Shown one piece after another: positions 13,170 through 41,901 of a stretch of 45,585 bases of DNA (positions are counted from its first letter, which is position 1; each line of letters opens with the position of its first letter). This DNA is from Geitlerinema sp. PCC 9228 (GTDB lineage Bacteria; Cyanobacteriota; Cyanobacteriia; Cyanobacteriales; PCC-9228). The DNA lies in NCBI RefSeq assembly GCF_001870905.1, contig NZ_LNDC01000045.1, positions 1 to 45,585 of the forward strand, in the 5' to 3' direction. The notes under the pieces are model-generated. The model did no database searches, was not told the DNA's origin, and saw nothing but the letters and a program-made list of their open reading frames with translations. Made by a program: the position numbers and the translations under genes.

Positions 13170-16100
13170 TTAGAATTTCCCATCCAACGCCGCAACGCAA
13201 CGTTCGCAAATGGTGGGATGTTCTTGGGAAATGCCAACTTGGGTGGAATAGTTCCAGCAGCGATCGCATTTTTGACCGTCGGCTTCGGTAATGCCAACGG
13301 CTAGTTTGTCGGTTTCGCTGCGATAATCCAATTGTTGAATGGCTTCTGGCGAGGAAACCATTTCTACCTGGGAAACCAAGAACAAATAGCGCAGTTCGTC
13401 AACGCCGTTGGTTTGGGGTTTGGCTGGCTGTTGCGGTAGGGAGGTTGCGGTTTCGGTGGTGGCGGGTTCGCCGACGATTTGCTGTTTGGTGGTTTGGATT
13501 TTCTGTTGCAATGCCTGGCGATCGCGCGAGAATAGAAGATTGCGGACGACAAATACACCGCTGTATCCCAAGCCAATGAGTTGGAAAATGGCTGGCAATC
13601 CGGGAACTGTCGCGATCGCATTTAAAATACTAGCGGTCACTTTCAACACAATCCCCGCAGACAGCACCACTGCCGCTAAAGTTGCTCCTTTGGTGACCAC
13701 TGGCGACCAAACTTGCCAGGCAGTATTCAGCGCCGCAAAAAATGCATCCCATTCTTCCCTGGATTTGGGGAAAGTCTCAGGAAATTTCACATCGTCAACG
13801 GTCATCTCTTGGCTGACTTTGGCTGGGGATGGTTGGGGATTGGGTTCCGGTTGTGGTGAGGTAGCGGCAACTTGGTGTAACTCTTCCACCGCTTGACACA
13901 GTTGCGGGTCGCTCACATACAGCAAGGCTTTGGCATCTAAGGAAGCACCAATTTTCTTCTCGCTGCGTGCCGTTTCCAGGACTTTGTTGACTTCCATCCG
14001 AATTTGCCGTAATTTTTGCCAGCGGTCTGCCAGTTCTGGCTGGTTCCAGTGGGGTTCGGTATATACCCATCCCGACTCAAACACCGATTCTGCTGTGGTG
14101 GGATAGGGCAAATTCTGCCAAATATCTTCCGCCATGTGACACATCACTGGGGCAATGGAACGAGCTAAATTTTCCACCGCGATCGCCATTACCGTCTGAC
14201 AGCTGCGCCGCCGCCAGGAATCCGCCGCACTGATATACAGCCGGTCTTTCACCACATCCAAATAAAAATTCGACAGATCCACCACGCAGAAATTCTGCAC
14301 CATCTGGAAAAACCGGAAAAACTGATAGTTAGAAAACGCCGTGGTCACCTCTGCGAACACTTCGCTCATGCGATGCAGCATATAGCGGTCCAACTCCGGC
14401 ATTTCCTCGTAAGCTACCGCATGCTGGCTGGGGTCAAAATCGTGCAAGTTCCCCAACAGAAAACGCGCCGTATTGCGAATTTTCCGATACACATCCGCCA
14501 GCTGTTTCAGAATATTCTTCCCTAACGGCACATCCGAAGAATAGTCAACGGAAGACACCCACAAGCGCAACACATCGGCACCGTAAGGCGGGTCTTGTTT
14601 TTGATTGTTTCCACCAGCAATAACCACCTGGGGGTCGATAACATTTCCCAAAGATTTGCTCATCTTGCGTCCTTTTTCATCCAGAACAAACCCATGGGTT
14701 AGCACTGTTTTATAAGGAGAAATGCCATTGTTAGCAACACTGGTCAGCAAACTGGATTGAAACCAACCCCTGTGCTGGTCGGATCCTTCCAGATACATAT
14801 CCACCGGATAAGTTAATTCCTCTCTTTGTGCTGCCACAGCCGCCCACGAAGAACCGGAATCAAACCATACGTCCATGGTGTCGGTTCCCTTCCGGTAAGT
14901 GCGTCCGTTATTTCGGTAAGACTCCGGCAGCAGTTCTTCCACCGGCAGTTCCCACCAAGCATCGGATCCCCGTTCGGCAAAAATATTTTGCACGTGGGCA
15001 ATGGTTTCTTCCGTAAGCAGAGGTTCGCCGCTTGCTTCGTCGTAAAATACAGGAATGGGAACCCCCCAACTCCGCTGGCGGGAAATACACCAGTCGGACC
15101 GTTCCGCCACCATTGATTGAATGCGGTTTTTCCCTTGGACAGGAATCCACTGGACCTGTTCGATGGCTTGCAACACGGCTTCCCGGAAGCCATCCACCGA
15201 CGCAAACCACTGTTCGGTAGCGCGGAAAATGGTGGGTTTTTTGGTGCGCCAGTCGTAGGGATATTTATGGTTGTAGTCTTCTTCGTGTAAAAGAACGCCT
15301 CGTTCTTGCAAAGCATCGATGACCCCGCGGTTGCCATCTCCCAAAACGTTGGTCCCGGCAAACTCTCCCGCTTGTTCGGTAAAGTTGCCATGTTCGTCTA
15401 CTGGCGATAGGAGAGGCAAACCGTAGCGTTGCCCCACCTGAAAGTCTTCCAAACCGTGACCGGGGGCTGTGTGTACCAAACCAGTTCCGGATTCGGTGGT
15501 TACGTAATCCCCACCAATGACAATGGGACTGGTTCTTTCAAACACAGGATGCTGGTAGCTGCAATATTCTAACTGCCTTCCTGTGAGGGTTTCTTTCACC
15601 GTTAGCTGCCGCCCCATGACCTGGCTGAGGCGTTCTACTAGTTCCGCAGCTACAATTAAATACTGAAATTTTAGAGTCCCGGAACTGGAACGGGGGGCAT
15701 TTTGGTCGGACTCTGATGGGGAAGTTTCCCCAAAGCTTTTGCCGCCCGTGTCTTGGGACTGTTGGTTTTTCCTCCCCCCGACTTCGACGACGGCATACTT
15801 GAGTTCCGGGTTGACGCTGACCGCCAAATTTCCAGGAATGGTCCAGGGGGTGGTCGTCCAGATGGCAACCCCTAAATTGGGTAAATATGGAGATAGCTGT
15901 TCTTTGACCTCGGCGTTGAGTTCGGTAACCGCAAAAGCGGCATAAATGCTGCGGGAAATGTGGTTGTCGGGATATTCCAGTTCGGCTTCTGCCAAAGCAG
16001 TTTTGGAACTAGGACTCCAGTGAACTGGTTTTTTGCCGCGATAGATGTATCCCTTTAGAACCATCTGACCGAAAACGCCGATTTGGGCGGCTTCGTAAGC

Positions 16101-16589
16101 CGGCTTCAGGGTTAGGTACGGATTTTCCCAATCGCCCCACACACCGTAGCGTTGGAAGCCCTGTTTTTGCTCTTCTACAGTTTTTAGGGCAAAATCCCGC
16201 GCTTTTTGTCGCAGGGTCAAGGGGGTCAGTTGGGAACGTTCCGACGATTTCATTTGCTGCAGGACTTTTAGTTCAATGGGCAATCCATGACAATCCCATC
16301 CGGGGATGTAGCGAACTTTACGCCCTTGCAGCAGCTGGTAGCGGTTAATAATATCTTTGAGGATTTTGTTGAGGGCGTGACCGATATGTAAAGCGCCGTT
16401 GGCATAGGGGGGACCGTCGTGCAAAACAAATATATCCCCCGGATTGTTCTGGGACAATCGCTGGTAAATCTGCTTGTCTTCCCAAAACTGCTGGATTTCC
16501 GGCTCTCGCTTGGCGGAGTTGGCCCGCATGGAAAACGAGGTTTTGGGGAGGTTTACGGTGTCTTTGTACGAAGGTCCTGATTCAGTCAC
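13170..16589 (-). CDS. ileS: Isoleucyl-tRNA synthetase with CAAD membrane-anchor insertion
   Basis: 1139 residues, about 180 longer than usual bacterial IleRS. Class I signature HIGH is at 68-71 and KMSKS at about residue 640; the C-terminal zinc ligands are Cys1108, Cys1111, Cys1128 and Cys1131. Between the anticodon-binding region and the zinc domain, about residues 910-1060, lies an insertion: a Pro/Gln-rich linker, then a CAAD domain (about 934-1040) with two hydrophobic helices ([20 protein letters not shown] and the [19 protein letters not shown] region), then a second linker. CAAD is known to anchor cyanobacterial aminoacyl-tRNA synthetases to thylakoid membranes. A second, low-complexity Ser/Gln insertion is at about 270-310 in the editing region. 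It ends 8 bp from the convergent pentapeptide gene. Confidence 0.97.
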
Positions 16590-28234: not shown

Positions 28235-28852
28235 TGCCACAAGCAGTTCTAACGAAACTTGCAAAATAACAAAAATGTTTTCGTACGGTTTTGGGAGTTT
28301 TTGAGGGAACCATAAGTTTTCTCCTCTTTGAACTTGTAGATTGTTTCCATTTTTTCTAGAGGATTTTCTTTCAGTTTGCTTTTGTTTCCTAAAATTCTCC
28401 AGTGTGAGATGCGTTCCTAAAATGCAGCCAATCAGAAAGATTTTCTTGTTGGGCTTTATCTTTATAGAACCATACCATCTAAAAGTTAAAGAAAGTTTAA
28501 AAACGAAAATTTTTGCTGCGATTGCAGTTGAAAGGAGAGTTTCATGCGATCGCTTCTTATCTGCAAAAAAAACGAATAGCGATCGAAGCAGTCATATGTT
28601 GTCATAGCGATGGAGAAGCAATTGCGAGCGGTCAATTTTTCCAAATCAGGCAATCGGAGCATTGGCCAACCATATTCCACTTATCCGAACCAAAGATAAA
28701 AAATCTAAAAAAACAATAATTTATTTTCTAAAGTCCCCCAATTTCCCTGGTTGAGGCGCTTTGCGAATTGTCCCTACAAAAAATTTGGATTTCCGATAGC
28801 AGGCTTTCAGGCGTACAATAGAGAAGGAATCTGCGAACTTCGAGCCTGCCTT
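28235..28852. other. Intergenic region between divergent genes
   Basis: About 620 bp between the histidine kinase and carotenoid oxygenase starts. AT-rich; holds HIP1-like GCGATCGC near 28547 and a TTGAGGCGCTTTGCGAA repeat fragment near 28752. Small open frames here lack ribosome-binding sites and coding character. No structured RNA recognised. Confidence 0.5.
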
Positions 28853-30283
28853 ATGCCAACCTCAAACACCAACCAAACTGCTTGGGCAAGAGCGGTTCTG
28901 CCGCCAGGGGTAGAATTCCCCCCCACCGAACTCACCGTACTGTCGGGTTCGATTCCCCCAGGAATTCGTGGTTCTCTATACCGCAACGGACCAGCGCGCT
29001 TGCAGCGGGGAAAACGCCGCGTTGGTCATTGGTTTGACGGTGATGGGGCTGTATTGGGAGTTCGTTTTACCTCCGACAAAGCCATCGGAACCTATCGCTT
29101 TGTACAAACTGCCGGCTATCGCCACGAGGAACAAGCGGAAACCCTCTTGTACGGTGGTTATGGCATGCTGCCTCCGGGAAGTTGGTGGAATCGCTGGCGC
29201 TATCCCGTGAAAAATGTTGCCAATACCTCGGTTCTGGCGCTGCCGGATAAGGTGTTGGCGTTGTGGGAGGGGGGTCATCCCCATGCTTTGGACCCGCAAA
29301 CCTTAGAAACGCGCGGAACGGACGATTTGGACGGTTTGGCAGCGGAAGCGCCGTTTTCTGCCCATCCCAAACGCGACCCCCAAACGGGAGAGATTTACAA
29401 TTTTGGTGTTGTGTTTGGCAGGCAGCCTTCTCTCAACCTCTATCGTTGCAATGCAATGGGCAAAATTGTCAAGCAAAATGCTATTCCTTTGAGTGGGATG
29501 TCGTTGATTCATGATTTTGTTTTGGCAGGTCGGTATTTGGTGTTTTGTATACCACCTGTACGCTTGAAAGTTTTGCCGGTTTTACTAAAATTCATGACGT
29601 TTTCTCAAGCGATGAGCTGGCAACCGTCTTTGGGAACGGAGATTTTGGTGGTTGACCGGGAAACGTTACAGGAAACTTGTCGCTTGCAGGCGGAACCTTG
29701 GTATCAGTGGCATTTTGGCAACGGTTGCGAGGATGAAGGGGGCAATATTGTTTTGGATATGGTTCGTTATGAAGATTTCCAAACCAATCGTTACCTGCAG
29801 GAGGTGGCGACGGGAAATCCCAAAACCAAGGCGCGGGGCAATCTCTGGCAGCTACGTTTGTCTGTTCAAAAAGGTAAAGTGATTGAACTAACGCCCCTGT
29901 ACGATCGCACTTGTGAGTTTCCTTGCGTGGTGTCTTCCCAAGTGAGTCAGCCGTGGCGGTTTACGTATTTATCGGTTTTGCGTAATGAGGAGGATTTGGG
30001 TAAGGAATTGGTGGGTGGCGCGATCGCGCGGGTAGACCGTGGGGAAGGAAAATCGGTTACTGTGGCACTGCCGGCGGGGGATTATGCCAGCGAACCTATT
30101 TGTATTCCCGACCGCGATCGAGAGGAGCAAATGTGGTTGCTGGTGGTGGTTTACCGCAGCAGTTGCCATACCAGCGAACTGTGGATTTTGGATGCGAATC
30201 GCTTTGATGGCCATCCCGTTTGTCGTTTGCAGTTGCCTCGGGTCATTCCCATAGGATTTCACGGTACTTGGCAAGCTGATTGA
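28853..30283 (+). CDS. Carotenoid oxygenase (RPE65/CCD family)
   Basis: 476 residues from the ATG at 28853; an upstream in-frame start at 28751 falls in repeat-like sequence. The family fold is a seven-bladed propeller with four His residues holding Fe(II). Matching His-containing blocks can be seen: AHPKRDPQTGEIYNFG, SLIHDFVLAGRY, QWHFGNGCEDEGGN and the C-terminal IGFHGTWQ. The opening LRGSLYRNGPA-type segment (IRGSLYRNGPARLQRG) is also characteristic. Such enzymes cleave carotenoids or apocarotenals, for example to retinal in the Diox1 type. Substrate specificity cannot be read from the sequence. Cytoplasmic, membrane-associated. Confidence 0.93.
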   Translation: MPTSNTNQTAWARAVLPPGVEFPPTELTVLSGSIPPGIRGSLYRNGPARLQRGKRRVGHWFDGDGAVLGVRFTSDKAIGTYRFVQTAGYRHEEQAETLLYGGYGMLPPGSWWNRWRYPVKNVANTSVLALPDKVLALWEGGHPHALDPQTLETRGTDDLDGLAAEAPFSAHPKRDPQTGEIYNFGVVFGRQPSLNLYRCNAMGKIVKQNAIPLSGMSLIHDFVLAGRYLVFCIPPVRLKVLPVLLKFMTFSQAMSWQPSLGTEILVVDRETLQETCRLQAEPWYQWHFGNGCEDEGGNIVLDMVRYEDFQTNRYLQEVATGNPKTKARGNLWQLRLSVQKGKVIELTPLYDRTCEFPCVVSSQVSQPWRFTYLSVLRNEEDLGKELVGGAIARVDRGEGKSVTVALPAGDYASEPICIPDRDREEQMWLLVVVYRSSCHTSELWILDANRFDGHPVCRLQLPRVIPIGFHGTWQAD

Positions 30284-30853: not shown

Positions 30854-33718
30854 ATGAAAAACACTACGGCCAGTTTTGCCAACCATCAAGCCAAAAAGAG
30901 TGCCATGAACGCATTCCAAGGAAGTCATTCGTGCCATAACGCGGGCGATCGCTTGCCATCCATGCCTAATTTATCCGACATTCTAGAGGGAACCGTGCGA
31001 GAAGCGGCTGCTTATTTGGGTGTCGATCGAGTTTTTATTTACCGCCTGCCAAAAGATCGCTGCAGTAAAGTAATAGCGGAGGCTTGCCAGCAAGAACGAT
31101 TACCCTCTTTATTGGGTCAGAATTTACCAACGGCGTTGCTTCCCCAACAGGTCCGTTCCGCGCCAAAGCAAGGCTGTCAGTGGGAAATTGTAGATGTAGA
31201 TGCCCAGCAGAAAACTATGTTGGGGGTAGAGTCCATTGCTGAGGGGATCCACCAATCCCACGAATGCAGCCAAGTGACCAGGGATACCATGTATCGCGCT
31301 TCTGTGGACCCCGATCGCTTGCAACTGCTACTAGAGTATCAGGTTCAAACCTCCCTAACGGTCCCCATTTGGCAGCAAAAAAATTTGTGGGGCATTTTGT
31401 TCGTTCACCACAGCCAAACCTACTTTTTCTCCCAACACCAACTGCAATTTTTACAAACGATTATCAATCGCATCTCTACCGCGATCGCCCAAGGAGAACA
31501 ATCCCAAATCGGGCAGTTTTTAGACATGGAGAATACGAAGACTCAGGTCAACGGTAATGGCAAACACCTCTTTGCTATCGAGGGTAGCTATGCCAACGAA
31601 GAACAACAAAAACAGCTGCTGCTTGAGGCAGAACTGCGTCAAGCGATCGCGCGCGAAGAATTTCTCCTGTACTACCAACCGCAAATCGACTTGAAAACCG
31701 GCGAAATTTCCGGTCTGGAAGCATTAATTCGCTGGCAACATCCTCGACGGGGATTGATTTCTCCCAAAGAATTTATTCCCGTTGCTGAAGAAACCGGTTT
31801 GATTTGTCAAATCGGCGAGTGGGTATTGCATACCGCTTGCCAGCAACATCAGGAATGGCTTGCTCAAGGTGTAGCACCAGTTCCTATTGCCGTGAATTTG
31901 TCCGCCAGACAGTTCCAGCGTCCGGATTTGGTAGACAATATTTTAGACATCCTGGCGCAAACCCAGATGGACCCGAAATATCTGGAAATTGAAATCACCG
32001 AAAGCACCGCCGTTCGGGATGTTCCCTTTACCATTCAGATTTTACAGCAGCTGCAGCAAGCCGGCATCCGAATTTCCATTGACGATTTTGGAACCGGGTA
32101 TTCTTCCCTCAATGCCATCAAAAACTTTCCCGTGGATACTCTCAAAATTGACCGCTGCTTTGTCCGGGATTTGATGAGCGATTCTACAGATGTGGCGATC
32201 GCGAAAACCATTATTGCCTTGGGTCAAGGACTCAACATGCGGGTATTGGCAGAAGGCGTGGAAACCCCCGAACAAATGGAACTGCTGCGATCGCTGCAAT
32301 GCGACTTCGTGCAAGGATACTTGTTTGGGAAACCCATGAATCGGGAGGCAGCTGCTTCCTTGCTGCAAAGACACCTGTTTGTAGATAACAACTGGCAGGG
32401 AACCCTTGCTCCCTTTGCCACTTCCCCCGGCGAAATGGAGATCGAATTTGACAGCAGCAGTTCGACGCCACAAACCTCCCCAAATTACCTAGCCAACGGC
32501 CACCTTCCTTTTCACTGCGACCCCATTGTCCAGCATCAGGTACGCTTGCTGTACCGCAAAAACCAAAAACTGCAAGAACAACTGCGCAAATATCAAGAAT
32601 TGGAAGCTTCTTGGAAGCAACAATTTAAGCGGGAACAGCTGGTGGCGCAAATGACCCAGAAAATCCACCAGTCCCTGAACTTGAAAGATATTCTCAACGC
32701 TACCGTTACCCAAGTGCGGGAGTTTTTGCAAGCCGACCGGGTGATGGTCTATCGCTTCCAACCAGACTATCGGGGAAAAGTGGTGGTTGAGTCTACTGCC
32801 GAAAATGTCCCATCCCTACTAGGAATGATTATTAACGACAACTGTTTCCGGGAAAAATATGTTTCTGCCTACAAGCAAGGGAAAATTTTGGCGGTGGACA
32901 ATATTTACGACTCCCATTTCTCCCCTTGCCACATTGAGTTTTTGGAACAGTTCCAAGTCAAAGCCAATTTGATTTTGCCAATTATCCACGAAGACCACCT
33001 GTGGGGATTGATTTTCGTCCACCAATGCCACCAATCCCGCCACTGGCAGGAGTCGGAAATTCAACTGCTTTCCATTCTCGCCAATCAAACCGCGATCGCC
33101 ATTCATCAGGCGCAACTATACCAGCAACTGCAAGCTGCCAACCAGGAACTTCACCACCTCGCCATTGTAGATGGACTTACTGGGGTGGCCAATCGCCGCT
33201 ATTTCGACGAGTATCTGTACCAGCAGTGGCAAACCCTCTGTCAGAGAAATGCTCCCCTTTCCTTAATTTTGTGCGATTTGGACCAATTTAAAGAGTACAA
33301 CGATACCTTTGGACATCAAGCCGGCGACGAAGCCTTGAAACAAGTAGCCGATGCTATGGAACGGTCGGTGAAACGGTCTACGGAGATGGTAGCGCGTTAC
33401 GGTGGCGAAGAATTTGCTATTATTTTGCCCCATACCGATAGTGCCGCTGCTATGAGAATAGCCGAAGAAATTAGAGTGCGGGTACGAGCTTTGGACTTCT
33501 CGCCATCCGACAATTCGGTAGGACGCAATCTGACGTTAAGTTTGGGGGTTGCTACCATGGTTCCCGATGCCTTGTCTTCGCCAGAAAACTTGGTGGCTAA
33601 GGCAGACCAAGCTCTGTACGTCGCTAAATCGGAAGGACGCGATCGCGTGGTGTGGCAAGATAGTAGCTGGTCGCCAGAGTCAAAAGATGGTCCCAGCAGC
33701 GATCGAGTGGCTTCTTGA
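30854..33718 (+). CDS. Cph2-like photoreceptor: GAF-EAL-cyanobacteriochrome GAF-GGDEF
   Basis: 954 residues; ATG preceded by AAGGAG. Order: GAF1 (about 41-215, no chromophore Cys), EAL phosphodiesterase (about 250-510), GAF2 (about 605-757), GGDEF cyclase (about 768-935). The EAL domain keeps EALIR (289-293), Asn348, Glu380, DDFGTGYSS (410-418), Lys431 and Glu467, so it looks active. GAF2 has the canonical cyanobacteriochrome cysteine in CH (Cys692-His693) before IEFLEQFQVKANLILPI, and DNCF (662-665), the DXCF second-cysteine motif. GGDEF reads GGEEF (850-854), an active variant; its inhibitory site is RSTE (841-844) instead of RxxD. The EAL-GAF-GGDEF order equals the C-terminal half of Synechocystis Cph2, a blue/green sensor controlling c-di-GMP. 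Inferred: light-regulated c-di-GMP turnover. Confidence 0.88.
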   Translation: MKNTTASFANHQAKKSAMNAFQGSHSCHNAGDRLPSMPNLSDILEGTVREAAAYLGVDRVFIYRLPKDRCSKVIAEACQQERLPSLLGQNLPTALLPQQVRSAPKQGCQWEIVDVDAQQKTMLGVESIAEGIHQSHECSQVTRDTMYRASVDPDRLQLLLEYQVQTSLTVPIWQQKNLWGILFVHHSQTYFFSQHQLQFLQTIINRISTAIAQGEQSQIGQFLDMENTKTQVNGNGKHLFAIEGSYANEEQQKQLLLEAELRQAIAREEFLLYYQPQIDLKTGEISGLEALIRWQHPRRGLISPKEFIPVAEETGLICQIGEWVLHTACQQHQEWLAQGVAPVPIAVNLSARQFQRPDLVDNILDILAQTQMDPKYLEIEITESTAVRDVPFTIQILQQLQQAGIRISIDDFGTGYSSLNAIKNFPVDTLKIDRCFVRDLMSDSTDVAIAKTIIALGQGLNMRVLAEGVETPEQMELLRSLQCDFVQGYLFGKPMNREAAASLLQRHLFVDNNWQGTLAPFATSPGEMEIEFDSSSSTPQTSPNYLANGHLPFHCDPIVQHQVRLLYRKNQKLQEQLRKYQELEASWKQQFKREQLVAQMTQKIHQSLNLKDILNATVTQVREFLQADRVMVYRFQPDYRGKVVVESTAENVPSLLGMIINDNCFREKYVSAYKQGKILAVDNIYDSHFSPCHIEFLEQFQVKANLILPIIHEDHLWGLIFVHQCHQSRHWQESEIQLLSILANQTAIAIHQAQLYQQLQAANQELHHLAIVDGLTGVANRRYFDEYLYQQWQTLCQRNAPLSLILCDLDQFKEYNDTFGHQAGDEALKQVADAMERSVKRSTEMVARYGGEEFAIILPHTDSAAAMRIAEEIRVRVRALDFSPSDNSVGRNLTLSLGVATMVPDALSSPENLVAKADQALYVAKSEGRDRVVWQDSSWSPESKDGPSSDRVAS

Positions 33719-33778: not shown

Positions 33779-34585
33779 ATGACCTCCCAACTCGACGCTC
33801 AGTCGGTATTTTCTACCCTAAAAACCATCCGCTACAACCAACCCCTCATTCACAACATCACCAACTTGGTGGTCATGAACTCTTCCGCCAATGCCTTGCT
33901 GGCTTTGGGAGCTTCTCCCGTCATGGCCCATGCTTTGCGAGAAGTGCGGGATATGGTAACCATTTCCTCGGCGTTGGTGGCGAATATTGGTACTTTAAGT
34001 GCCGACTGGGTGGAAGCCATGGACCTGGCTATGCAGCAAGCCAGAGATAGCCACAAACCCATCGTACTCGATCCGGTGGGCGCTGGTGCCACCCCCTATC
34101 GGACCCAGGTAACCCGCCGGCTGCTGGCAAGTAACCCAGTTACCGTCGTTCGCGGCAATGCTTCTGAAATTGCGGCCCTTGTTAGCGACGAAAGCACCAC
34201 CAAAGGCGTCGATGCAACGCAACCTTCTCAAAATGCCCAGGAAGCCGCTCGCATTTTGGTCAAACAGTACGATTGTACCGTAGTGGTGAGCGGGGCTGTC
34301 GATACCATTTGCGATCGCCACCAAACTTTACACATTGCCAACGGTCATCCTTTAATGGCGAAAGTCACCGGCATGGGATGCAACACTTCCGCTTTTATTG
34401 CCGCCTGCCTGAGCGTTACCTCTCCTCCCCCGATTGCTGCTGCCACCGCCATGGCCGTTGCCGGGATTGCCGGAGAAATAGCAGCCGAGAAAGCAGCAGG
34501 ACCGGGGAGCCTGGCGGTACATTTTTTGGATGTTTTGTACAATTTAGATGAGGCAGATATTCGCCAACGGCTACACTGCTATTAA
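33779..34585 (+). CDS. thiM: Hydroxyethylthiazole kinase
   Basis: 268 residues, normal length. It has the ThiM opening pattern (PLIHNITNLVVMNSSANALL), VLDPVGAGATPYR, and the catalytic-cysteine loop reading VTGMGCNTSA. ThiM phosphorylates 4-methyl-5-hydroxyethylthiazole, a salvage step of thiamine synthesis. Only 60 bp separate it from the photoreceptor gene, too short for a TPP riboswitch, and none was seen. No other thiamine gene is in the window. Confidence 0.95.
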   Translation: MTSQLDAQSVFSTLKTIRYNQPLIHNITNLVVMNSSANALLALGASPVMAHALREVRDMVTISSALVANIGTLSADWVEAMDLAMQQARDSHKPIVLDPVGAGATPYRTQVTRRLLASNPVTVVRGNASEIAALVSDESTTKGVDATQPSQNAQEAARILVKQYDCTVVVSGAVDTICDRHQTLHIANGHPLMAKVTGMGCNTSAFIAACLSVTSPPPIAAATAMAVAGIAGEIAAEKAAGPGSLAVHFLDVLYNLDEADIRQRLHCY

Positions 34586-37536: not shown

Positions 37537-37626
37537 AACGGGATTTTTTGTTTGTAGGTGGTTACGCGGTCTAAAGATGGGACAATAAAACCGATAAAGA
37601 CAGACCCAAGCATTTCACAGTACCAG

Positions 37627-39384
37627 ATGGCGGTAGCATCTATGCCCAGCCTACGAAAATTTTTTACCGGTTCGGTTGCCAGTTTTTGGCATCCCCACAG
37701 CATTTTTTGGTTTAGCCTCACCATCACGTTGGCGGCTGTATACGCTTTGTTGGCGATGCAGGCGGCGTTTGACGGCGAGTATGTGGTTCAAGACGATGCC
37801 AGGCAGCATGTGTTCTGGATGCAGCGTTTTGTCGATCCGCAATTGTTTCCCAACGATCGTATTGCCGATTATTTTCAATCGGTTGCTCCCAAAGGATACG
37901 CTACGCTATACCGAGGAGCAAGTTGGCTGGGAATTTCGCCGCTATTGCTGCACAAATTGTTGCCGCTGGTGTTGGGGTTGCTGGCAACAGGATACGGATT
38001 TGGGGTATCCATGCAGATTTTGCCGGTTCCCTTTGCTGGGTTTGCGTCGATGTTGCTGCTGAATCAGTGTCTTTGGCTGCAGGATGGTATGGTGTCGGCG
38101 ACGCCAAAGGCGTTTGTGTATCCTTTGTTTTTGGTGTTTTTGTATTACTGGCTGCGGCGGAATTTGTGGTTGATGGCAGCTGCGATCGCAGTTTTGGGGG
38201 GATTTTATCCCCAGTATGTTTTTATTGCGGATGGGGTGTTGGTGCTTTCGTTGCTCGGCTTTCGCAAGTTAGAATTTCGCTGGCTGGGCACCCGCGATCG
38301 CTATAGGTTGGTCGGGGTTGGCTTGTGGGTTTCGTTTCTGATTTTGCTTCCCTACGCGATCGCAACGTCGGAATTTGCCCCTACTGTGTCTTTGGAAACA
38401 GCAAAAACTATGCCGGAATTCCAACCCGAAGGGCGAACAGTCTTTTTCCATGATGACTTGGGACGGTTTTGGATGGTGGGTCGCGGTGGTTTGCGTTTGT
38501 CGTTAGAACCAATTTTGCTGTGTTTGGGGTTATTGCTGCCTTGGCTTTTGCAGTTACGCCATTGGTTTCCTTTAGGGAATCAAGTACAGAAAAATGTTCA
38601 CTCACTAACGCACTTGCTGGTTTCTGGTTTGGGCATGTTTTTGATTGCCCATATGCTTTTGTTTGCCTTGCACCTTCCCAGTCGCTACACCCAGCATAGT
38701 TTTCGCATGGCAATTTCCTTAGCAGCCGGATGTGCTATGGTTTTGCTGTTAGATGGCATTTGGCAGTGGTTCTCCCAGCGGCAAAATCGATTTTTGGCAA
38801 GGGGGGGGCAGCTGAGTATTGTGGCTTTTTTGGTTGGTTATTTACTTTTGTATCCCCTAACGTTAGATAATTTTCCTTGGACGGGATATATTGTGGGACG
38901 ATATCCTAAATTATACGAGTTTCTCCAACAAACACCGAAGGATACCTTGGTAGCTTCTGTTAGCGTGGAAGCCAACAATATTCCTACATTTGCACGTCGT
39001 TCCACGTTGGTTGCCAGCGAGTATGCCATTCCCTACCATTTGGGATACTACCAACCATTTCGCCAACGTACGGAAGATTTAATCCGTGCCCAGTATAGCC
39101 GCGATCGCGCTGTGGTGGAAAATTTTATTCAATCCTACGATATTGATTTCTGGCTGATAGACCGGGTGGCGTTTATCCCGGAATACGTTTCTAAAAACCG
39201 CTGGTTGCGTCAATACCAAGAGGCTAGCGAGACGGCTTTGACGTCGCTACAACAACCCACACCTCCCGTTTTAGCTAAGTGGGTGGTTCCCGAAATTCCT
39301 TTACCTAAAAGCGAAAGTGAATGTATTGCTTTTGAAAATCAAACGCTGGTCCTATTAAATACTAGCTGCTGGCTGGATCGATAG
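37627..39384 (+). CDS. Polytopic membrane protein, possible GT-C fold
   Basis: 585 residues from the ATG at 37627; a GTG at 37558 is also in frame but would leave only 21 bp to the divergent neighbour, and an ATG at 37642 is possible. About ten transmembrane segments. The first loop after helix 1 reads YVVQDDARQHVFWM, with an acidic pair in the position expected for GT-C glycosyltransferases. C-terminal soluble domain from about 470. I do not recognise a named family. The pairing with the GT39-like gene suggests a shared role in envelope glycan assembly. Confidence 0.7.
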   Translation: MAVASMPSLRKFFTGSVASFWHPHSIFWFSLTITLAAVYALLAMQAAFDGEYVVQDDARQHVFWMQRFVDPQLFPNDRIADYFQSVAPKGYATLYRGASWLGISPLLLHKLLPLVLGLLATGYGFGVSMQILPVPFAGFASMLLLNQCLWLQDGMVSATPKAFVYPLFLVFLYYWLRRNLWLMAAAIAVLGGFYPQYVFIADGVLVLSLLGFRKLEFRWLGTRDRYRLVGVGLWVSFLILLPYAIATSEFAPTVSLETAKTMPEFQPEGRTVFFHDDLGRFWMVGRGGLRLSLEPILLCLGLLLPWLLQLRHWFPLGNQVQKNVHSLTHLLVSGLGMFLIAHMLLFALHLPSRYTQHSFRMAISLAAGCAMVLLLDGIWQWFSQRQNRFLARGGQLSIVAFLVGYLLLYPLTLDNFPWTGYIVGRYPKLYEFLQQTPKDTLVASVSVEANNIPTFARRSTLVASEYAIPYHLGYYQPFRQRTEDLIRAQYSRDRAVVENFIQSYDIDFWLIDRVAFIPEYVSKNRWLRQYQEASETALTSLQQPTPPVLAKWVVPEIPLPKSESECIAFENQTLVLLNTSCWLDR

Positions 39385-40076: not shown

Positions 40077-41901
40077 ATGGATTTTGACGCTATTCACGTA
40101 TTAAACCCAGACGACAATACCTACACAACCGACGGTCAGAACGATTTGGTTGTGGCTTTGGGAGGTTCCGACATCGTCGCGGCTTTGGGAGGCAACGACT
40201 ATCTGTTTGGTAACCAGGGAAACGATCTCCTCAGCGGCAATGGAGGAGAAGATATTCTGCGAGGCGGTCAGCAAGATGACTGGCTGCTAGGGGGAGATGG
40301 TAATGATGTGATGACCGGAGATTTAGATAACGACGTTGTTGCCGGCGGTAACGGTAACGATTTCATTTACGGCAATCAAGGCAACGACCAACTCTTCGGC
40401 AACAGCGGTCGAGATAACATCTATGGCGGTCAAAATAACGATTTGATTCGCGGTGGTCGCGATAGCGATCGCATTTTTGGCAATTTAGGAGATGATACCC
40501 TTAGCGGCGATTTAGGGAAAGACACTTTACAAGGAGGTTTGGGAAGCGATCGCTTTATTATTGGTGTAGATTTGGGGGGAATGTCTGTAGAAGAGGCAGA
40601 TGTCATTAATGATTTTACCGATGGTGTGGATAGTATCGAAATCGCTGGCAATATCGACGCTGATGATATTGAAATTTCCCAAGGAACAGGAGAATACAGC
40701 GAAGATACGGTGATTCGCAGTCGCGGAAGTAGTGAATATTTTGCGGTTTTCAAAGGAATTGATAGTTCGGTTATTGATGGTGATGATTTTGTCAATCTCA
40801 GCAACGTAGACCCATCACCGACACCAGACCCATCACCGACACCAGACCCATCACCGACACCAGACCCATCACCGACACCAGACCCAGCTAGTTTAGCATT
40901 CGATACTGCTAACTATAGCGTTAGTGAAGATAGCGGCAATGCCACGGTTACTGTTACCCGAACTGGTGGTAGCGATATGGTGAAGTGAGTGTACATTACG
41001 CCACTAGCGACGATACGGCAACTGCTGGGTCGGATTACACCAGCCAAAGTGGAACTTTAACCTTTGCGGCTGGGGAAACTAGTAAAACCATTGAAATTCC
41101 CATTAGCGACGATAGCGATGCAGAAGGAAACGAAACCTTACAGCTAACGCTAACCAATGCGGTAATGCGAATTTGGGAAGTCAGGATACCACCTCTCTAA
41201 CGATTTCGGATAATGATATTGCCACCGCCGTATCGGACTCTGCTAAGTTAGGCGGTTACAATGATGACATAGATTTAAGTAATGAATCTGAGGTAGCTGC
41301 CAGAGGAGGTCCTAGCGTTACTGTGGGAAATCGCTCGATTTATATCGGTTACGAACAAGTGACTAACCTCAATCAAAATCCAGTGATGGTCAGCTTTACC
41401 AACGGTACGCAAGATTGGGTGGTTGGCAGCGAATTGGAAGAAAGTAGTACCGATACGCGGGGATATGGCTTACTATGGGATGGCGGTGACAATCTCTATG
41501 CCGTCTTTAGTACAGATGGTACGCAAGGCAGTACCAATGAAGACTTCCGCGAGTTTGCTACTGATGGCTGGCTGACTAGCTACGGTCAAGGCGGTGGTGC
41601 CAAGGTTGCCATTATCGCCAAGATTGACCCAAATACTGGTATTCCCACGGATGCGACTTTCCTCTATGCCAAACTCAGTAATGGCAACAGCAATACCATG
41701 ACGGTCACTGATTTGTCGCTAAATAGCAATGGCAATGTGGTGGTTCAGGCAGCATCCTACTTCTCACCTCTGCAGGTAGATAAAACCAGGATGGAAAATA
41801 ATGGACCCGATACGAGTTCTCCCTTTGACTATACGATTGAGTTTACGCCAGATTTGAGTTCTGCTGTACGAGCAGAAGCACCCGGTTTTCAAGGAACTTG
41901 A
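40077..41901 (+). pseudogene. RTX/Calx-beta calcium-binding protein gene broken by two frameshifts
   Basis: Three frames must be joined to read the whole protein (about 607 residues). Part 1 (40077 to about 40978) has some 14 RTX-type GGxGxD repeats (GGNDYLFGNQGNDLLSGNGG and on), then four DPSPTP linker repeats and the start of a Calx-beta domain. Part 2 (about 40979-41160) continues Calx-beta (VHYATSDDTATAGSDYTSQS). Part 3 (41161-41901) completes it (TTSLTISDNDIA) and adds a C-terminal domain of about 230 residues, unassigned. Break 1 is a duplicated AT at 40975-40978, making a TGA at 40986; break 2 is one missing base between 41160 and 41161. Such proteins are usually secreted by type I systems and bind calcium. 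The rest of the reading is undecayed, so recent mutation or sequence error is likely. Confidence 0.75.
40809..40880 (+). repeat. Four tandem 18-bp units encoding DPSPTP
   Basis: Four identical copies of GACCCATCACCGACACCA in the linker between the RTX and Calx-beta parts. Identical copies suggest slippage-driven copy-number change. Confidence 0.9.

Follow-up and report, generated by a model that had tools for sequence, protein, structure and literature searches.

The closest described counterpart of the gene analysed here is the photoreceptor Cph2 (Sll0821) of Synechocystis sp. PCC 6803. According to a review (PMC5812497), its C-terminal module, made of EAL, a cyanobacteriochrome (CBCR) and GGDEF, produces c-di-GMP in blue light, its N-terminal part has phosphodiesterase activity, and the role of its red/far-red half is still poorly understood. 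Related control by a single sensor is described for SesC, in which blue light raises synthesis and green light raises degradation via one CBCR (PMC9090330), and for SesA (Tlr0924), in which one CBCR-GAF is fused to GGDEF and blue light increases cyclase activity (PMC5812497). Typical DXCF domains bind PVB and photoswitch, absorbing blue in their dark state and green as the photoproduct (PMC11284453).

The window, i.e., the whole 45,585-nucleotide stretch of Geitlerinema sp. PCC 9228 that was analysed, belongs to a draft assembly, in which misassembly is possible. It contains an open reading frame of 954 codons that starts with ATG just 3′ of an AAGGAG sequence, and whose product has the domain order GAF1-EAL-GAF2-GGDEF (Table 1). 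Pfam profiles place EAL at residues 259-494 (E = 4e-80) and GGDEF at residues 770-931 (E = 4.7e-50), and recognize GAF in two stretches, the best at residues 609-750 (E = 4.6e-46). A sequence-only reading had reported the order EAL-GAF-GGDEF, a DXCF motif at residues 662-665, the Cys692-His693 pair, the EAL residues and a GGEEF loop, all of which are borne out by Pfam and by direct inspection. On the strength of domain content, motifs, kinship, the decay of GAF1, the absence of the GAF2-GGDEF1 part of Cph2 and the presence of bilin genes, all of which are read from the DNA, we consider it probable that this gene is a Cph2 orthologue that has lost red/far-red sensing and has kept a blue/green switch on its cyclase together with an intact phosphodiesterase.

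Table 1. Positions in the window of the Cph2-like gene, its parts and two neighbouring genes.
Feature	Positions	Strand	Evidence
Short Cph2-like photoreceptor (predicted), 954 aa	30854..33718	+	ORF; Pfam GAF, EAL, GAF, GGDEF
GAF1, aa 38-213, degenerate phytochrome-type, cognate of Cph2 GAF1	30965..31492	+	PDB matches, tree, invariant positions
LLP, aa 95-97, at the DIP site of Cph2 GAF1	31136..31144	+	Motifs of relatives
Asp154-Arg155, at the chromophore Cys-His site of Cph2 GAF1	31313..31318	+	Motifs of relatives
Linker, aa 214-254, where Cph2 GAF2 and GGDEF1 are absent	31493..31615	+	Alignments
EAL phosphodiesterase domain (predicted), aa 255-508	31616..32377	+	49/50 invariant positions kept
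Gln-rich charged linker preceding GAF2, aa 560-605	32531..32668	+	Sequence read
GAF2, aa 590-762, DXCF cyanobacteriochrome domain, cognate of Cph2 GAF3	32621..33139	+	Alignment, tree, invariant positions
DNCF (DXCF) motif, aa 662-665, second cysteine Cys664	32837..32848	+	Alignments
Canonical chromophore cysteine Cys692 and His693	32927..32932	+	Alignments
GGDEF domain, aa 766-933, cognate of Cph2 GGDEF2	33149..33652	+	Pfam; 46/51 invariant positions kept
RSTE at the product-inhibition site, RxxD in relatives	33374..33385	+	Motifs of relatives
GGEEF active-site loop, aa 850-854	33401..33415	+	Sequence read
Carotenoid oxygenase, upstream of the Cph2-like gene	28751-30283		
thiM, 60 bases downstream of the Cph2-like gene, same strand	33779-34585	+	

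The 22 relatives that were fetched share the layout GAF1-GAF2-GGDEF1-EAL-GAF3, followed in most of them by GGDEF2, and a 23rd (G675), judged by its translation, falls in the same length class and has the same motifs; GAF1-GAF2-GGDEF1 is present in all 23. Searches and trees establish that the C-terminal part of the 954-residue protein is orthologous to the EAL-GAF3-GGDEF2 of Cph2. Only 41 residues separate its GAF1 from its EAL domain, and the tongue-bearing GAF2 and the GGDEF1 of Cph2, about 380 residues, are absent. A search of the organism's own genome with full-length Cph2 found neither another Cph2 copy nor an orphan GAF2-GGDEF1 unit. The hits of a profile scan of genome contigs were due to two generic motifs: its 80 loci, in which only two ORFs matched GAF, include no relative of Cph2 that has EAL and both GAFs. 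Matches to EAL-GAF-GGDEF were found at E <= 1e-125 in at least 20 of 388 genomes of the order (the present one included) and at least 10 of 386 in an overlapping survey of the phylum, and at E <= 1e-120 in at least 2 of 63 genomes of another order, these counts being lower bounds because the Cph2 of G024 (order survey) and that of G205 were missed. Nineteen further genomes gave no survey match, yet G205, with its Cph2-like protein, is among them. Two genomes that match only GAF-GGDEF were left out of the Cph2 count (G025 and G038, the latter with a frame of 837 aa), and two further long frames lie outside the fetched set (G311, 1596 aa; G337, 1323 aa). Among the matches listed in this sample, no other frame of about 950 aa holds EAL, GAF and GGDEF, and a literature search to which subscription papers were mostly closed brought up no description of a Cph2 without GAF2-GGDEF1. 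The Cph2-like proteins encoded at two loci (L202:3438-8228 and L203:1281-6074) are about 1600 aa long, and some 390 residues lie between their EAL and CBCR GAF domains.

The N-terminal domain is best read as a degenerate GAF1 of the Cph2 type. Its best PDB matches are the knotless phytochromes 2lb5, 2k2n, 6oza/6ozb, 8w26 and Cph2 itself (4bwi). In a tree built from 79 GAF domains (10 of 89 rows, duplicates or poor fragments, having been dropped beforehand), its neighbours are Cph2 GAF1 and further knotless phytochromes (support 100/98), and its end branch has a length of 1.18 vs. a median of 0.29. It keeps 25 of the 36 positions that are invariant in 14 Cph2 relatives, which themselves score 95-100% when left out one at a time (the invariant-position counts for the domains of this protein used 14, 14, 12 and 11 representatives). 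The lost positions include the chromophore cysteine and histidine and the DIP aspartate: Asp154-Arg155 stands where 23/23 fetched relatives have CH, and LLP where the same 23 begin the motif with D (DIP in 21, DLP and DVP in one each), so the Cys-His and DIP signature of a bilin-binding Cph2 GAF1 is lacking. Mean identity to nine core relatives, chosen among the 22, is 38.7%, vs. 55.1% among these. This domain had been called cysteine-less, which is right for the chromophore position, taken by Asp154, and wrong for the domain as a whole, which contains Cys 70, 78, 108 and 138. Likewise, the phytochrome-like N-terminal half had been declared missing; GAF2 and GGDEF1 are indeed gone, but the half is not simply missing because GAF1, by its PDB matches, its place in the tree and its invariant positions, is a decayed remnant of it. 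The idea that a cysteine-less GAF stands in for the phytochrome half has to be given up, as the domain lies within the phytochrome clade and retains those 25 positions. In the best explanation, it would persist as a GAF domain that binds no bilin.

Within the phytochrome clade, GAF1 takes a basal position outside any Cph2 GAF1 group, as would be expected if an EAL-GAF-GGDEF C-terminus had been fused to a knotless-phytochrome GAF of unrelated origin, which later decayed, or if the protein descended from an ancestral Cph2 without GAF2-GGDEF1. The basal position is however explained by long-branch placement, and sisterhood with the Cph2 GAF1s of genus g20 (G019, G068 and G086) is compatible with the data (AU test, p 0.444). 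The domain is most identical to the Cph2 GAF1 of G019 (41% in the tree set; 43% as the best other genome), the EAL domain is nearest to the Cph2 EAL of the same genus (65% identity), and the long form is found in 23/23 relatives. A trace of GGDEF1 in the linker would have marked a deletion scar: a profile of the GGDEF1-EAL junction of the 22 relatives scored 18.4 bits there, a value that 93 of 1000 shuffled versions of the 39 residues upstream also reached, and the candidate was rejected. Since no significant scar is present, fusion or primitive absence keeps some probability, which we judge to be small; a deletion inside a Cph2 gene would be the simplest history and is preferred to fusion.

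By its sequence, the second GAF domain is a genuine cyanobacteriochrome. Among solved structures it matches CBCR sensor domains best, with 6oap at the top (E = 2.4e-51), and both of its cysteines, those of DXCF and CH, align with those of the blue/green receptor TePixJ (3vv4), which was the alignment proposed as a check on the dual-cysteine DXCF assignment. In the GAF tree it falls in a 38-row clade of CBCR and Cph2-GAF3 domains (100/98) and, within the Cph2 proteins, inside the third-GAF group (90/77, then 88/46), i.e., away from the non-photosensory GAFs with which it should have clustered had that assignment been mistaken; the assignment therefore stands. Thirty of the 37 positions invariant in 12 relatives are kept (88-100% for those relatives left out in turn), the seven changes spare the DXCF and CH motifs, and mean identity to the core relatives is 49.4% vs. 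58.9% among these. Cys692 and GGEEF lie 158 residues apart, as in 12 of the 14 relatives with intact GGEEF, so the coupling from sensor to cyclase is conserved in length; the linker ahead of GAF2 looks helical. By likeness to typical DXCF domains, GAF2 is predicted to bind a bilin and to switch between blue and green. Phycocyanobilin:ferredoxin oxidoreductase (pcyA) and two haem oxygenases are encoded in the genome, so a bilin can be made.

Both enzyme domains carry full motifs and are presumed to be active. In EAL, the motifs are found at residues 289-291 (EAL), 380 (EITES), 410 (DDFGTG), 431 (KID), 466 (AEGVE) and 487 (QGY), which provides the complete catalytic set of a phosphodiesterase (EAL, N, E, DDFG, K, E, Q); identity shows no deficit (50.7% to the nine core relatives, 49.7% among these), and the domain clusters with EALs from the Cph2 proteins of two genera, in a group (SH-aLRT 93) that includes one Chamaesiphon EAL. 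The GGDEF domain has RYGGEEF and the metal- and GTP-site residues of an active cyclase, with a mean identity to the core of 51.3% vs. 57.8% among these. Its inhibitory site, which is dispensable for activity, reads RSTE where 14/14 relatives with GGEEF have RxxD, and product inhibition may be weaker. The loss of GAF1 function, the deletion and this altered site, along with a GAF2 below its leave-one-out range, might also be taken as the first steps of a pseudogene whose product no longer has a light output. We hold such wholesale decay to be very improbable: the 954-codon frame is open and has a ribosome-binding site, EAL and GGDEF keep 49/50 and 46/51 invariant positions, the two CBCR cysteines are retained along with the spacing of 158 residues, and the loss is uneven and centred on GAF1.

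The EAL domain may run at a steady rate, be steered by GAF2, or be governed by the silent GAF1. GAF2 could drive the EAL on its N-terminal side and the GGDEF on its C-terminal side in opposite directions, an arrangement that we regard as possible but doubtful. Here the EAL lies upstream of the sensor, whereas both outputs of SesC follow its sensor, and a constitutive or GAF1-controlled EAL would fit the sequence equally well. The two-way arrangement gains from the full-motif EAL and GGDEF on either side of GAF2, from the decay of GAF1, which leaves no other photosensor for EAL, and from the existence of bifunctional control by a single CBCR in SesC (PMC9090330).

Under the preferred reading, a Cph2 orthologue deprived of red/far-red sensing, the phytochrome module would have been dismantled by loss of the tongue-bearing GAF2 and GGDEF1, with GAF1 left as a GAF fold without bilin and with EAL, GAF3 (here GAF2) and GGDEF2 staying in place. 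Its bilin binding, colours, enzyme activities and sign of response are predicted as follows. GAF2 would bind phycocyanobilin through Cys692, and addition of Cys664 to C10 would give a blue-absorbing dark state; blue light would break the Cys664-C10 bond and yield a green-absorbing state, and the signal would travel through a fixed-length helix to GGDEF and raise c-di-GMP. EAL would break c-di-GMP down, either steadily or under the flanking GAF domains, light control of this domain being presumed in the latter case. The net effect would be synthesis in blue light and breakdown in green light or darkness.

Losses of the reverse kind were encountered among the relatives. In genus g9 (G008, G037, G193, G156 and G170), GAF1 keeps CH and DIP, GAF3 has neither DXCF nor CH, and GGDEF2 is degenerate (loci L050:8176-11973, L051:9618-13367, L196:5416-9165, L197:629-4378 and L198:4951-8700). 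G019, G086 and G068 lack GGDEF2 and retain DXCF and CH in GAF3, and G205 has no intact GGDEF2 and shows EEVF and CM in GAF3. GGDEF1 reads GGDEF or GGDEL in all nine relatives in which GGDEF2 is lost or degenerate, and is degenerate by motif in all 14 with intact GGDEF2 (RWHG in 12, RWGD in two); with the absent GGDEF1 of the 954-residue protein scored as not intact, 24/24 proteins have a single intact-motif GGDEF. This pattern is suggestive only, and because it comprises two supported independent changes on the EAL tree (sign test, p 0.5; three changes on the best tree) it is a proposition to be tested rather than a result. One tentative and rather unlikely extension would be a rule of one working cyclase, with blue-type Cph2 proteins (GGDEF2 intact, GGDEF1 degenerate) and red-type ones (GGDEF1 intact, GGDEF2 lost or degenerate), in which the present protein would be an extreme blue type with dual control of EAL and GGDEF and with inhibition relaxed by RSTE. 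Should the pattern hold with more lineages, it would assign the output of Cph2 to one colour at once.

Seven neighbouring genes compared with the flanks of the 22 relatives gave just generic histidine-kinase matches and no conserved gene order, promoter- and terminator-like sites are not in excess over shuffled sequences, and no Rfam family reaches threshold in the window. The octamer GCGATCGC, presumably HIP1, occurs 71 times in the window vs. 0.5 expected; two copies (31481-31488 and 31643-31650) flank the GAF1-EAL junction, which may be chance at such density. Elsewhere in the window, an isoleucyl-tRNA synthetase of 1139 aa (13173-16589, minus strand) carries a CAAD domain at residues 960-1040 between its anticodon-binding domain and its zinc finger, a 303-aa protein (40077-40988) has RTX calcium-binding repeats, and the frames at 37558-39384 (608 aa) and 41173-41901 (242 aa) have no Pfam match at 1e-5.

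Set beside known systems, the protein resembles the TePixJ GAF (3vv4, 4glq) in the two photochemical cysteines of GAF2, and differs from TePixJ, a taxis receptor, in having c-di-GMP enzymes as its output. It departs from SesC, whose domain order is CBCR-GGDEF-EAL, by its own order EAL-GAF-GGDEF. With SesC (Tlr0911) of Thermosynechococcus it shares one predicted blue/green CBCR with GGDEF and EAL in one protein (PMC9090330), and with SesA (Tlr0924) a predicted blue/green CBCR joined directly to GGDEF, whereas SesA has neither EAL nor a phytochrome remnant (PMC5812497). Its kinship with Synechocystis Cph2 is the closest: the EAL-CBCR(DXCF)-GGDEF C-terminus corresponds to the architecture given in the review (PMC5812497), and GAF1 is the counterpart of the phytochrome GAF1 in that protein. 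Unlike that protein, it has no GAF2 or GGDEF1, its GAF1 is devoid of the chromophore cysteine and histidine and of the DIP aspartate, and, judged against the fetched relatives, it has RxxE for RxxD. A natural deletion would here have separated the halves of a much-studied photoreceptor, and the protein may offer a compact blue/green tool for c-di-GMP; together with genus g9, in which the blue half is dead as the red half is here, it would allow what each half of Cph2 does to be compared within one family.
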